NCBI GenBank assembly: GCA_029265615.1
Contig: JAJUIB010000009.1
Coordinates: forward strand, 1 to 64,000
Origin: Spirochaetota bacterium
GTDB taxonomy: Bacteria; Spirochaetota; Spirochaetia; Treponematales; Rectinemataceae
Reading direction: 5' to 3'
DNA length: 64,000 nucleotides
The position numbers and the translations under genes were made by a program. Under the pieces are notes generated by a model. That model searched no databases and was not told the origin of the DNA. It was given only the letters and a program-made list of their open reading frames with translations. Below are positions 3-4,015 of this stretch, in pieces. Each line of letters begins with the position of its first letter. Position 1 is the stretch's first letter.

Positions 3-92
3 CCCAAGGCTAAGGGCGTCGTCGACGCGGGTAAGAAAGCCCCCGCGAAGCGCGGACGCCGCAGTGAAGATTCCCGCATGCGGGAGCTGTGA
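3..92 (+). CDS. 3' end of an unidentified gene with a Lys/Ala/Arg-rich tail (partial)
   Basis: Only the last 29 codons are in the window; the frame starting at base 3 ends in TGA at 90-92. The visible tail is basic and low in complexity (PKAKGVVDAGKKAPAKRGRR). Its first bases closely match the DNA at about 850-872 inside the next gene, which encodes PKAKGVAASRG at the start of that protein's linker. This suggests that the lost upstream gene is a paralogue of the next one, or shares its linker. The function cannot be judged from the fragment. The frame assignment rests on this match and on basic composition. Confidence 0.5.
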   Translation, partial: PKAKGVVDAGKKAPAKRGRRSEDSRMREL

Positions 93-230: not shown

Positions 231-239
231 ACACACAGG

Positions 240-275
240 GCCGTCCGGACTGCCAAACGGTTCGGGCGGCTTTTT
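240..275 (+). terminator. Intrinsic-terminator-like hairpin
   Basis: GCCGTCCGGA (240-249) pairs with TTCGGGCGGC (261-270) with eight Watson-Crick pairs, one G-U pair and one mismatch, and TTTTT follows at 271-275. It could end the upstream transcript. Because it lies downstream of the TATACT box and only 30 nt before the next ATG, it could also be a leader attenuator. Confidence 0.55.
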
Positions 276-304: not shown

Positions 305-1342
305 ATGAAAAACCTTAGCTGCCAATTCGAGGGCCTCGCCGACAGGCAGGGCTTCAACGCCTCGGTCCGCCACATCAAGACCGTCGTTGCAGTGGTCGAG
401 CGGGTGGAAGGCAGGGAAAATCTCGCCGATGTCATCGGTGAGCTCATAGAGGAGCGCCTGCTCGACAAAGACGAGGTGCTACCCGTCGTCGCCATGGTGC
501 TCGGCGACAAATTCCATTACCGGGCGGTTTCGCTCAACCTCCCCTCGGTGGCTCAGGACCTTGCGACCGTTGCTGAGGCAGCGGGAACGTGGAACGCAGT
601 CGATCTCGTCGCCGTCTACCATCATCCCGACCTCGGTCCCATAGCGGTCAACCCGAAAAACCCCAAAAGCCTTGCGCGCATAGACCGGCTATCGCGGAAT
701 GAGTTACTTGTCGCTTGGGCCGGCCGCTATGGTAAGGAGGCGGATGCCGCGCTTCTCGACCAGGCCGCCCAGGCGCTCGCCGCCCTGTTCGCCGGGAAGA
801 CGCCCAAGCCGAAGCTCGATCTTGCAAAGGGAGACTGCACGTACAAGCAGCCCAAGGCTAAAGGCGTCGCCGCTTCGAGGGGCCCCCGTGCGTCGGCTCA
901 GGCTAAGGCCCCGGCTGCTGCGCCGCGCAAAAAAGCTACCGGGGCTGCGGGTGCCCAAGTAGCTTTCGAACACAAGCCCGCGGTCGAGGCCGAACGCGCC
1001 GTGAAACCGGGTTCCCGCATGACCCCGATGTACTCCGTGCAGGTCACGAATGAGCTCTTTCACAACGGCAATGTCGAGGCCTGGAAGCGCATTATCGCGA
1101 GCTACAATGCGAAATATCCCGGCCTTCAAGTGCTCGTGTACTATGATGGCGAGCGCATCGCCGATATCAATGCCCTTTTCAAATGGGGCAAGGTGAAGCA
1201 CGGATCGACGATTCAATTTGCTGTGGCCGGCGACGATATCCAGGGCGTCGCGAAACTCCAGCGCTACCTCGCTCAGGGCGCAAGCCCGCAGTTCGAGGCC
1301 TTTCTCCGGGGCCCCGTCAACGCGACCCTGCCCCTCTTCTGA
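305..1342 (+). CDS. Protein of unknown function with a C-terminal HPr-like domain
   Basis: The product has 345 residues. AAGGAGG at 287-293 stands 11 nt before ATG 305 and sets the start. Residues 1-165 form a globular region I do not recognise. Residues 166-238 are a Lys/Ala/Pro/Arg-rich linker. From about residue 242 the sequence aligns by eye with HPr of the PEP phosphotransferase system: VLVYYDGERIADINALF matches the HPr stretch around its NGK and Ser46 region, and KHGSTIQFAVAGDD matches the last strand. His253 (in ELFHNGN) falls where the phosphorylatable His15 of HPr lies, but the Arg17 and Pro18 that follow it in HPr are absent and a short insertion follows. The gene lies 12 nt ahead of a PPDK-like gene, so the two products probably act together. 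The HPr resemblance is a hand alignment; the partner role is inference. Confidence 0.75.
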   Translation: MKNLSCQFEGLADRQGFNASVRHIKTVVAVVERVEGRENLADVIGELIEERLLDKDEVLPVVAMVLGDKFHYRAVSLNLPSVAQDLATVAEAAGTWNAVDLVAVYHHPDLGPIAVNPKNPKSLARIDRLSRNELLVAWAGRYGKEADAALLDQAAQALAALFAGKTPKPKLDLAKGDCTYKQPKAKGVAASRGPRASAQAKAPAAAPRKKATGAAGAQVAFEHKPAVEAERAVKPGSRMTPMYSVQVTNELFHNGNVEAWKRIIASYNAKYPGLQVLVYYDGERIADINALFKWGKVKHGSTIQFAVAGDDIQGVAKLQRYLAQGASPQFEAFLRGPVNATLPLF

Positions 1343-1354
1343 GGCGACGGTCAC

Positions 1355-4015
1355 ATGGGAAAGGGACATGCCATGAAGGAAAACATCCACTTTTTCAGCC
1401 AGAATCAGACCGTCAAAAAGGGCGTTGATCTTGAAAAGCTCGGCCAGCGCGGAAGGCAGGCGAACGAATTCGCCGAGCTCGCCCTGCCTATTCTGCCCGG
1501 CTTCATCATCGATGCCGACGCCGCAGCCTCCCTCGGCAAGGAAAAGGTATTCGAGGCGATTCGCCCGACGGTAAAAAAGATTGAGGAGATCGTCGGGAAG
1601 CGTCTGGGCGACGCGGCAAACCCCCTCCTCTGGAAGATCGTCGTGTCGCCGAATCTTGCGATCTCGAACTATCCCACGCTCCACAACTTCGGCCTTGCCA
1701 AGGACACGGTTGAGGGCTTCGCCTCCTGGGTCGGCGCCAACTTCGCCGCGCATGAGGTGCTCTTCCTCGTGCGCGGTATGCTCGCCGTTGAGGAGAAGAT
1801 CGCACAAGTCGAGGAGCGCGCGAAGGACCTTGAAACCCTTCACCAGGCTTCTATCGCGGTGTCGAAGGCGCTCGGCGCAGAAAAGCTCGCAAAAACCGCA
1901 GCCGCGCTCATGGACGAGTATGCGCCCTATCTGCCAGAAGGCTTTTTTGCCTCGGCCTCAGGACAGCTCGAGACCGCGCTCAAGCGCGTGTCTCGCCTCA
2001 TCGAGCTCGACGAACAGGATGCCGAGGACACCGCGCTTCTTGTGCAGCCAATGGTCTATGGCAACTATGGCAAGGGATCAGCCTCGGGGGCATTTTTCAC
2101 CCGCGACGTGGTCTCGGGCGAACGCAGGCTCCAGGGGGAGTTCTACCAGGAGCGCTTCAATGAAATCGGCGCCGTCGGAAAGGACATCAACGCCATCGAA
2201 CCGGCGTACCTCAAGGAACTCGAAAAAATAGCGCGAAAGCTCGAAGATCGCCACAAGGAGATCCGCCAGATACGCTTCACCGTCGAGAATAAGAAGCTCT
2301 GGCTCATCGAGCAGCGCCAGGTTGTCGCGAAGAGCACGCAGGCCGACCTCAAGTTGCTACTCGACCTCTGTTCCCGCAAGGTGGTGGACGAGGCCTTTGT
2401 GGTGCAATCCATCGCGCCTGGTCGTCTTAACGAGATACTCCATCCCGTCGTCAATCTTGCAAGCGTTAAAAAGCTAGCGGGCGTGTCCGGCGGCATCGCG
2501 GGAGCGCCTGGCGCGGCGATCGGCCGCGTATATTTCAGCACCGAGGCCCTCCTCGAGGCACACCGCAACGCCCAGCAGCGCGGCGAGGACAAGCGCCTCA
2601 TCCTTGTGATGCCTGCGACCTTTGCGGAGGATGTCAAGGCGATCGAGGTGGCTCAAGGAGTGCTTTCCTGCGAGGGCGGCTACTCAGCGCACGCATCCGT
2701 CGTCGCCCGGCAGTACGGCAAGGTTTCGCTTGTGAAGCCCGAGATGAAAATCCGCGGGAAAAAGGCCGTCATCGGCGACCTTGCGCTCGCCGAGGGCGAC
2801 TATGTGACGATCAACGTACCCTACTACGGAGAACCGCAAATATGGGCCGGCAAAGCCGATCTCATCGAACCCGATCCCAAGGATTCAGGGCTCCTTGACT
2901 TCATCGCACTCGCCAAGGGGCAGATGGGGCACTTCCACGTGCGCGCGAACGCCGACAGCCCACGCGACGCCGCGCTGGCGCTCATGTTTGGCGCCGAGGG
3001 CATCGGTCTTTGCCGCACGGAGCACATGTTTTTCAACGAAAAACGCATCAACGTCATCCGCGAGATGATTCTCGCGGACACGCGCGAGGAGCGGGTTAAG
3101 GCGCTCGACAAGCTCAAGCCCATGCAGCGTGACGACTTCTACGGCCTGTTCAAGACGATGGCAGGCAAAGAGGTGACGATCCGCCTCCTCGATGCGCCCC
3201 TCCACGAGTTTCTTCCGCACAACTCAGGCGAGATGGATGCGCTTATAGCCCATCTTGGCGCAAGGAAGGGAGCGCCAAAGCTCTCCAAGGCCGAGATACA
3301 GGCTCGTTGCGATGCGCTCGCCGAATTCAATCCGATGCTCGGGCACCGCGGCTGCCGCATCGCCGTCTCCTATCCGGAGATTTACGAGATGCAGGTCCGG
3401 GCTATTTTCGAGGCGGTTTACAAGCTCCAGAAGGAGAAAGTCGACGTCCGTCCCGAGGTCATGATACCCATCGTGATGAATGCCGCTGAACTCAAGCTCA
3501 TCGTGTTCGGCAAAAAGATCGAGGGAAAGACCTACCGTGGTCTTGTCGACATCGAAGAAGAGGTTCGGAAGGAGCTTGGCGCCAAACCCGTGCCGTTTAA
3601 GATCGGCACCATGATCGAGCTACCCGCGGCCGCGCTTGGCGCCGGGGAAATCGCGCGCTACAGCGAGTTCTTCTCCTTCGGTACGAACGATCTTACCCAG
3701 ACGACGCTCGGCATCAGCCGCGACGATTTCAACACCTTCATGCCAGATTATTCGCTCTACGATCTAGTGGAGGGGAACCCCTTCTCAGTGCTCACCCCCG
3801 CAGTGAAGGATCTTGTGCAGGTCGCGGTGCGGCGAGGCAAGCTTTCACGTCCTGGTCTTGTCACGGGCCTGTGCGGCGAACACGGCGCAAATCCCGACAA
3901 CATCCGCTTCTGCATGGAAGCCGGGCTCGACTATGTGTCGTGCTCACCCTACCAGGTGCCGCTCTCGATCACTGCGGTCGCCCAAGCGGAGATCGAACGC
4001 CGGGCCGGAGCCTAG
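1355..4015 (+). CDS. PPDK-like PEP-utilising protein with degenerate ATP-grasp domain
   Basis: The product has 886 residues, close to pyruvate phosphate dikinase (about 875), and aligns with it end to end. The PEP/pyruvate barrel is intact: GIGLCRTEHMFF, TIRLLDAPLHEF, FSFGTNDLTQTT and GLCGEHG are all present. The phosphohistidine is kept as His446 in GGYSAHASVVAR. The N-terminal ATP-grasp domain looks disabled: GGKG is GQRG, the arginine of VRSGAR is gone, the Asp and Glu before FTIE are Gln and Arg (QIRFTVE), and Gln of LQTR is Glu. PPDK normally interconverts pyruvate, ATP and Pi with PEP, AMP and PPi; without the nucleotide site, the expected residual chemistry is PEP-dependent His phosphorylation, as in Enzyme I. 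The motif MIELPAAAL is also Enzyme I-like. ATG 1373 is an alternative start. It is the second gene of the operon, followed by a terminator at 4046. Confidence 0.85.
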   Translation: MGKGHAMKENIHFFSQNQTVKKGVDLEKLGQRGRQANEFAELALPILPGFIIDADAAASLGKEKVFEAIRPTVKKIEEIVGKRLGDAANPLLWKIVVSPNLAISNYPTLHNFGLAKDTVEGFASWVGANFAAHEVLFLVRGMLAVEEKIAQVEERAKDLETLHQASIAVSKALGAEKLAKTAAALMDEYAPYLPEGFFASASGQLETALKRVSRLIELDEQDAEDTALLVQPMVYGNYGKGSASGAFFTRDVVSGERRLQGEFYQERFNEIGAVGKDINAIEPAYLKELEKIARKLEDRHKEIRQIRFTVENKKLWLIEQRQVVAKSTQADLKLLLDLCSRKVVDEAFVVQSIAPGRLNEILHPVVNLASVKKLAGVSGGIAGAPGAAIGRVYFSTEALLEAHRNAQQRGEDKRLILVMPATFAEDVKAIEVAQGVLSCEGGYSAHASVVARQYGKVSLVKPEMKIRGKKAVIGDLALAEGDYVTINVPYYGEPQIWAGKADLIEPDPKDSGLLDFIALAKGQMGHFHVRANADSPRDAALALMFGAEGIGLCRTEHMFFNEKRINVIREMILADTREERVKALDKLKPMQRDDFYGLFKTMAGKEVTIRLLDAPLHEFLPHNSGEMDALIAHLGARKGAPKLSKAEIQARCDALAEFNPMLGHRGCRIAVSYPEIYEMQVRAIFEAVYKLQKEKVDVRPEVMIPIVMNAAELKLIVFGKKIEGKTYRGLVDIEEEVRKELGAKPVPFKIGTMIELPAAALGAGEIARYSEFFSFGTNDLTQTTLGISRDDFNTFMPDYSLYDLVEGNPFSVLTPAVKDLVQVAVRRGKLSRPGLVTGLCGEHGANPDNIRFCMEAGLDYVSCSPYQVPLSITAVAQAEIERRAGA

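Follow-up and report, generated by a model that had tools for sequence, protein, structure and literature searches.

The 64,000-nt window analysed here, the first part of contig JAJUIB010000009.1 from a spirochaete of the Rectinemataceae, carries near its beginning two adjacent genes, P1 and P2 (Table 1), whose reading frames were confirmed at the positions given in a preliminary description of this DNA. P2 encodes a homologue of pyruvate phosphate dikinase (PPDK) in which the nucleotide ligands are replaced and the phosphoenolpyruvate (PEP) site is intact, and P1 ends in a predicted HPr-like domain. The contig opens inside a third gene, cfpA (cytoplasmic filament protein A), of which the end is preserved. 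The connection with CfpA, the best clue to function at this locus, was absent from the preliminary description, as was the identity of the P2 counterpart in Treponema pallidum, TP0746.

P1 homologues occur in 71 of the 149 genomes of the order and in 107 of the 296 genomes of the phylum Spirochaetota. The pairing with P2, whose recurrence in relatives had been left to be checked, is near-invariant: P2 directly follows P1 in 79/80 loci, mostly at a spacing of 8-32 nt, while in one more distant family the two genes lie ~2-5 kb apart. Because M7 is near-invariant among P2 family members, ATG 1373 is probably the true start of P2, which would widen the gap between the genes from 12 to ~30 nt and turn His446 into residue 440. 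G142 (L156/L169), a complete genome congeneric with the one that we assign to T. pallidum (G013), has two overlapping frames in place of a single P2, reflecting a sequencing error, a pseudogene or a frameshift. Apparent inserts in cfpA and P2 of another genome (G001/L098) were rejected, as these stretches are N runs (scaffold gaps).

Table 1. Features at the beginning of the window.
Feature	Position	Strand	Description
CfpA C-terminal tail	3..92	+	PKAKGVVDAGKKAPAKRGRRSEDSRMREL*; last 29 residues; remainder of gene beyond contig end
Intrinsic-terminator-like hairpin and T run	237..273	+	cfpA-P1 gap; 16-pair stem; -24 kcal/mol
P1	305..1342	+	345 aa; N-terminal alpha/beta domain (aa 1-170), then a variable linker and a predicted HPr-like C-terminal domain
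Predicted HPr-like C-terminal domain of P1	1016..1339	+	aa 238-345; AlphaFold2 model, Foldseek PDB search, alignments
His253 codon	1061..1063	+	candidate phospho-acceptor, directly ahead of helix 1
P2	1355..4015	+	886 aa; PPDK-derived PEP-utilising protein, dead ATP-grasp domain
Pseudo-ATP-grasp domain of P2	1376..2389	+	aa 8-345; R32, V96, Q305, R307, E319 in place of K22, R92, D321, E323, Q335
His446 codon	2690..2692	+	swivel-domain phosphohistidine, motif GGYSAHASVVAR; conserved 75/75; PF00391 match
PEP/pyruvate-binding domain of P2	2888..3994	+	aa 512-880; PF02896, 237 bits; R554, R610, E755, N778, D779, C840 kept 75/75

P2 and its nucleotide site

P2 aligns with PPDK from end to end, at ~34-37% identity to true PPDKs and with the same fold, and shares with this family (TIGR01828; C. 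symbiosum structures 1dik/1kbl) the order of the three domains, the swivel histidine and a complete PEP site. It differs in the replacement of five key nucleotide ligands, in the loss of the ATP domain in one genus, in its pairing with P1 and CfpA, and in a TIGR01828 score of 660 bits that falls under the equivalog cut-off of 843, so that the score does not place it among the PPDKs. The PPDK_N domain (PF01326) persists as a slightly sub-threshold remnant, best at residues 280-330. In the tree, P2-type proteins form a branch apart from both true PPDKs and Enzyme I (support 0.995).

We compared residues among 75 family members, using C. symbiosum PPDK numbering and an alignment that also held true PPDKs of related spirochaetes. 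K22 is replaced by R in 74/75 members (the remaining one has a gap), R92 by V or I in 75/75, D321 by another residue in at least 71/75, E323 by R in 73/75 and Q335 by E or D in 75/75, the last change having gone unnoticed in the preliminary description. P2 itself has R, V, Q, R and E at these five positions and thus lacks the nucleotide ligands of PPDK, whose roles are established from work on that enzyme and are further documented by the PDB mutant entries K22A (1jde) and R337A (2dik) and, for Lys22, by a study of the related RPH enzyme (PMC4844700). All 75 members retain H455, R561, R617, D620, E745, N768, D769 and C831, the phosphohistidine and PEP residues, and the same combination of loss and retention recurs in 16 distant P2 members (~49-59% identity). 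In the same alignment, every nucleotide ligand is present in the true PPDK that this genome encodes on contig C3, as well as in the other true PPDKs, so the loss in P2 is no register error and a shifted alignment was rejected as its source. The earlier claim of a PPDK-like protein with a lost ATP site, an intact PEP site and an intact phosphohistidine is therefore borne out across the family.

Evolution has carried this loss further in genus g24, where P2 measures 586 aa in one complete genome (G016) and 547 aa in a draft (G106). Each of these proteins starts past the ATP-grasp domain and retains the His motif and PEP site, and P1 is intact. This deletion, seen in two genomes of one genus, means that ATP binding is dispensable and that the PEP chemistry, judged by the retained residues, is not. 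The preliminary description had cast the dead domain as a docking module for the HPr-like protein, a role that finds no support because g24 keeps P1 without that domain. A diverged cfpA lies elsewhere in G016 and none was found in G106, and two further genomes (G035, G139) have a diverged CfpA and no P1 that could be found. These few cases are compatible with a functional link and suggest CfpA, and not P1, as the partner that the dead domain serves.

The presence of a normal PPDK and Enzyme I elsewhere in this genome, which had remained to be checked, was established, and HPr is encoded as well. None of the results named in the preliminary description as fatal to its interpretation turned up, and that interpretation is supported in part. 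Since many genomes with the pair likewise hold a separate true PPDK, Enzyme I and HPr, the P1-P2 pair is additional to these standard systems. The genome of the window also contains a separate PPDK-related protein, a 1040-aa frame (G000:C21:52752-53894, L002) with a PPDK_N domain and no match to the PEP-binding domain.

P1 and the association with CfpA

No match of P1 to curated families was found. In an AlphaFold2 model (pLDDT 84), its C-terminal domain shows the HPr order of elements, with a helix (254-270) that begins right behind His253, and HPr-family structures make up the majority of the top 50 matches in a Foldseek search of the PDB (prob <=0.98, target TM ~0.5-0.7), at modest E-values of ~0.1-1. 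An HPr fold is thus predicted for this domain. No part of the pair is better conserved than this domain, whose mean pairwise identity of 0.77 exceeds that of each P2 domain. His253 is invariant in 81/81 P1 sequences and in every complete row of a phylum-wide alignment, across which the segments NELFHNGNVEAWK and LFKWGKVKHG are almost invariant too.

The gene directly upstream of the pair encodes CfpA (TP0748, TDE0842; NF040882), a known filament protein, the absence of which results in chromosome condensation and division defects (PMC3398590). The tail preserved in the window scores 84-97 against the CfpA tails of its nearest relatives, compared with a shuffle maximum of 51, and cfpA lies immediately upstream of P1 in 74/75 loci with room for it. 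In T. pallidum, where tp0748 is cfpA (PMC2217670), the gene upstream of the pair reaches 1227 bits against NF040882 (cut-off 500). Across the phylum, P1 and CfpA occur together in 104 of the 296 genomes, against 3 with P1 only and 5 with CfpA only (Fisher 2.0e-69), and within the order in 68 of 149, with 3 and 3 exceptions (Fisher 1.8e-34), although these p-values overstate the case by treating related genomes as independent. The genome of the window counts as P1-only purely because the contig end cuts cfpA. More weight falls on joint absence within several families and on five genomes (G030, G198, G204, G226, G232) that keep both P1 and CfpA with the genes on separate contigs or far apart. 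Flagella were rejected as the driver of this distribution, as flagellin is found in 130 of the 149 genomes of the order, namely in all P1 genomes and in 59 without P1. In T. denticola, TDE0842-0844 (cfpA, a conserved hypothetical gene and a putative PPDK gene) are reported to be jointly repressed in co-incubations with other oral bacteria (PMC3914990). In the open-access full-text literature we found no PEP-linked partner of CfpA, only the filament protein itself.

A putative PEP relay and its alternatives

Two described systems invite comparison. Like Enzyme I and HPr of the phosphotransferase system, P2 would carry out PEP to protein-histidine chemistry beside a protein with an HPr-like domain; unlike them, P1 lacks the HPr signature and has an additional N-terminal domain, and genuine Enzyme I and HPr coexist with the pair. 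P2 scores 102 bits against the Enzyme I family (cut-off 342) and matches only PF02896, PF00391 and, residually, PF01326, with no match to the N-terminal HPr-binding domain of Enzyme I. VadK of Mycobacterium tuberculosis (Rv1127c; PMC13400623), a regulator, resembles P2 in being derived from PPDK and having a phosphohistidine, and is otherwise its mirror image: VadK is described with the ATP-binding part and autophosphorylation, whereas P2 has the PEP part and a lost ATP site.

The explanation that we favour, with about an even chance of being right, is that PEP phosphorylates P2, that P1 is the likeliest acceptor or sensor, and that the pair acts with or on the CfpA filament. P2 would be a former PPDK that has given up the use of ATP; the phosphate of PEP would pass to His446 of the swivel domain with release of pyruvate, and from there to His253 of P1. 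The output would be exerted on the filament, most simply through a link between the cell's PEP/pyruvate state and the way in which the filament is assembled, anchored or turned over. This proposal draws on features read from sequence, namely the loss of ATP ligands, the intact PEP and histidine residues, the invariant His253, the pairing and the co-occurrence with CfpA. In its broadest form, a PEP-driven phosphorelay of an ATP-less PPDK and an HPr-like carrier would control an intermediate-filament-like cytoskeleton across spirochaetes, T. pallidum included, where the annotated PPDK would not form ATP; we advance this tentatively, its chances falling somewhat short of even. The proposal supplies the CfpA filament with two candidate partners and with a chemistry that can be tested, and P2 would be a clear example of a metabolic enzyme that has lost one half-reaction and kept the other.

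Several observations weigh against this explanation. Membership of P1 in the HPr family fails by sequence: HPr (PF00381) was reported neither for P1 nor in the list of 25 families obtained with 70 P1 members, and hhalign of P1 against a five-sequence HPr profile gave a non-significant probability of 0.2%, so that homology to HPr by profile was rejected. The residues after His253 are Asn-Gly-Asn, and both the H-x-R-P signature and Arg17 of HPr are absent. With neither that arginine nor sequence-level membership, phosphorylation of His253 is not assured, and of the HPr-like domain originally described, the fold stands as a prediction, with His253 placed before helix 1 in the model, while membership of the HPr family is not supported. 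CfpA also occurs in a few genomes where P1 is missing, most of them incomplete or with a diverged CfpA (G035, G139). Finally, most genomes have a strong hairpin resembling a terminator between cfpA and P1: a comparable hairpin and T run was seen in 67 of the 74 cfpA-P1 gaps, as opposed to 8 of 44 control stretches within P2, so cfpA and P1 need not share a transcript.

The missing Arg17 would fit a picture in which P1 and P2 belong to the filament system without catalysing a reaction, or as its sensors: P2 would be a pseudoenzyme with PEP or pyruvate as its ligand, and P1 would be an adaptor that, for example, bridges or anchors the CfpA ribbon, with no phosphate passing between them. The linkage and co-occurrence with CfpA would follow, the near-invariant NELFHNGNVEAWK and LFKWGKVKHG resemble a binding surface, and a tomography study, as cited in PMC3398590, speaks of bridging and anchoring filament components. 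Every P2 member, however, keeps the PEP-site and phosphohistidine residues, the acid/base cysteine included, which a scaffold would not need, and we consider this picture unlikely, if still a serious contender.

The intact PEP residues are also what one would expect if P2, phosphorylated by PEP, handed its phosphate elsewhere, whether to CfpA, to a small molecule or to phosphate or pyrophosphate, with P1 conferring specificity or serving as the docking subunit. Changes of partner have precedents among PPDK-related enzymes, as VadK (PMC13400623) and RPH (PMC4844700) illustrate, and the conserved charged residues R32, R307 and E319 in the former ATP cleft may bind another ligand. Yet His253, invariant and located where the helix of an HPr-like fold starts, argues for P1 as the acceptor, and genus g24 lacks the cleft altogether; we rate this version as rather improbable.

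The prevailing interpretation of TP0746 is that it is a working PPDK: PMC10013896 describes it as most likely forming ATP out of PEP, AMP and pyrophosphate, and PMC8525777 interprets its expression as pyruvate metabolism. In the genome that we assign to T. pallidum (G013; 1,139,633 bp), the pair lies at ~810.7-814.4 kb, with P2 on the minus strand (L152:4675-7377), and the TP0746 variants at 810772 and 811414 (PMC10013896) fall within it. By its residues, TP0746, annotated as PPDK, is of the ATP-site-dead P2 type, and it scores 609 bits against TIGR01828, below 843. That P2 still functions as a PPDK with an unusual ATP site, yielding pyruvate and ATP from PEP, AMP and pyrophosphate, could be argued from the fold and identity that it shares with true PPDKs, and from family searches and selected regions of G013, in which neither PPDK_N nor pyruvate kinase was matched and no other PPDK came up. 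Against this, all five ligands are replaced throughout the family, and K22A abolishes activity in the RPH enzyme (PMC4844700). The deletion of the ATP domain in g24 and the separate true PPDK and pyruvate kinase of many genomes argue in the same direction. G013 carries Enzyme I and HPr, together with genes for PEP carboxykinase and for the alpha and beta subunits of oxaloacetate decarboxylase, which could provide a PPDK-free route from PEP to pyruvate. A functional PPDK appears very improbable, and a common assumption about the energy metabolism of T. pallidum is called into question, TP0746 lacking nucleotide ligands and being the sole PPDK homologue found, with pyruvate kinase undetected; if the relay proposed here is correct, the PEP-to-pyruvate route of this pathogen needs to be found anew.

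That cfpA, P1 and P2 are neighbours by descent without a common function is barely credible: gene order alone can last among close relatives and the hairpin splits cfpA from P1, but the genes are jointly present or absent across families, inside one family and in genomes where they are unlinked.

The surroundings of cfpA offer some further observations. The hairpin in the cfpA-P1 gap (window 237-273; L040-L118) might set CfpA high and P1-P2 low. The CfpA tail (window 3-92; L040-L070) is basic, with a recurring G-V-V-D and an end that is usually R-E/Q-L or R-E-V, and may contain a binding motif. In family f5, several genomes (G043, G079, G091, G109, G143) have a second copy of cfpA off the P1-P2 locus. 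In three genomes where either cfpA or P1-P2 is missing (L166, L170, L171), the genes flanking the locus, named by eye, are phosphate acetyltransferase-like and DHH-family phosphoesterase-like.

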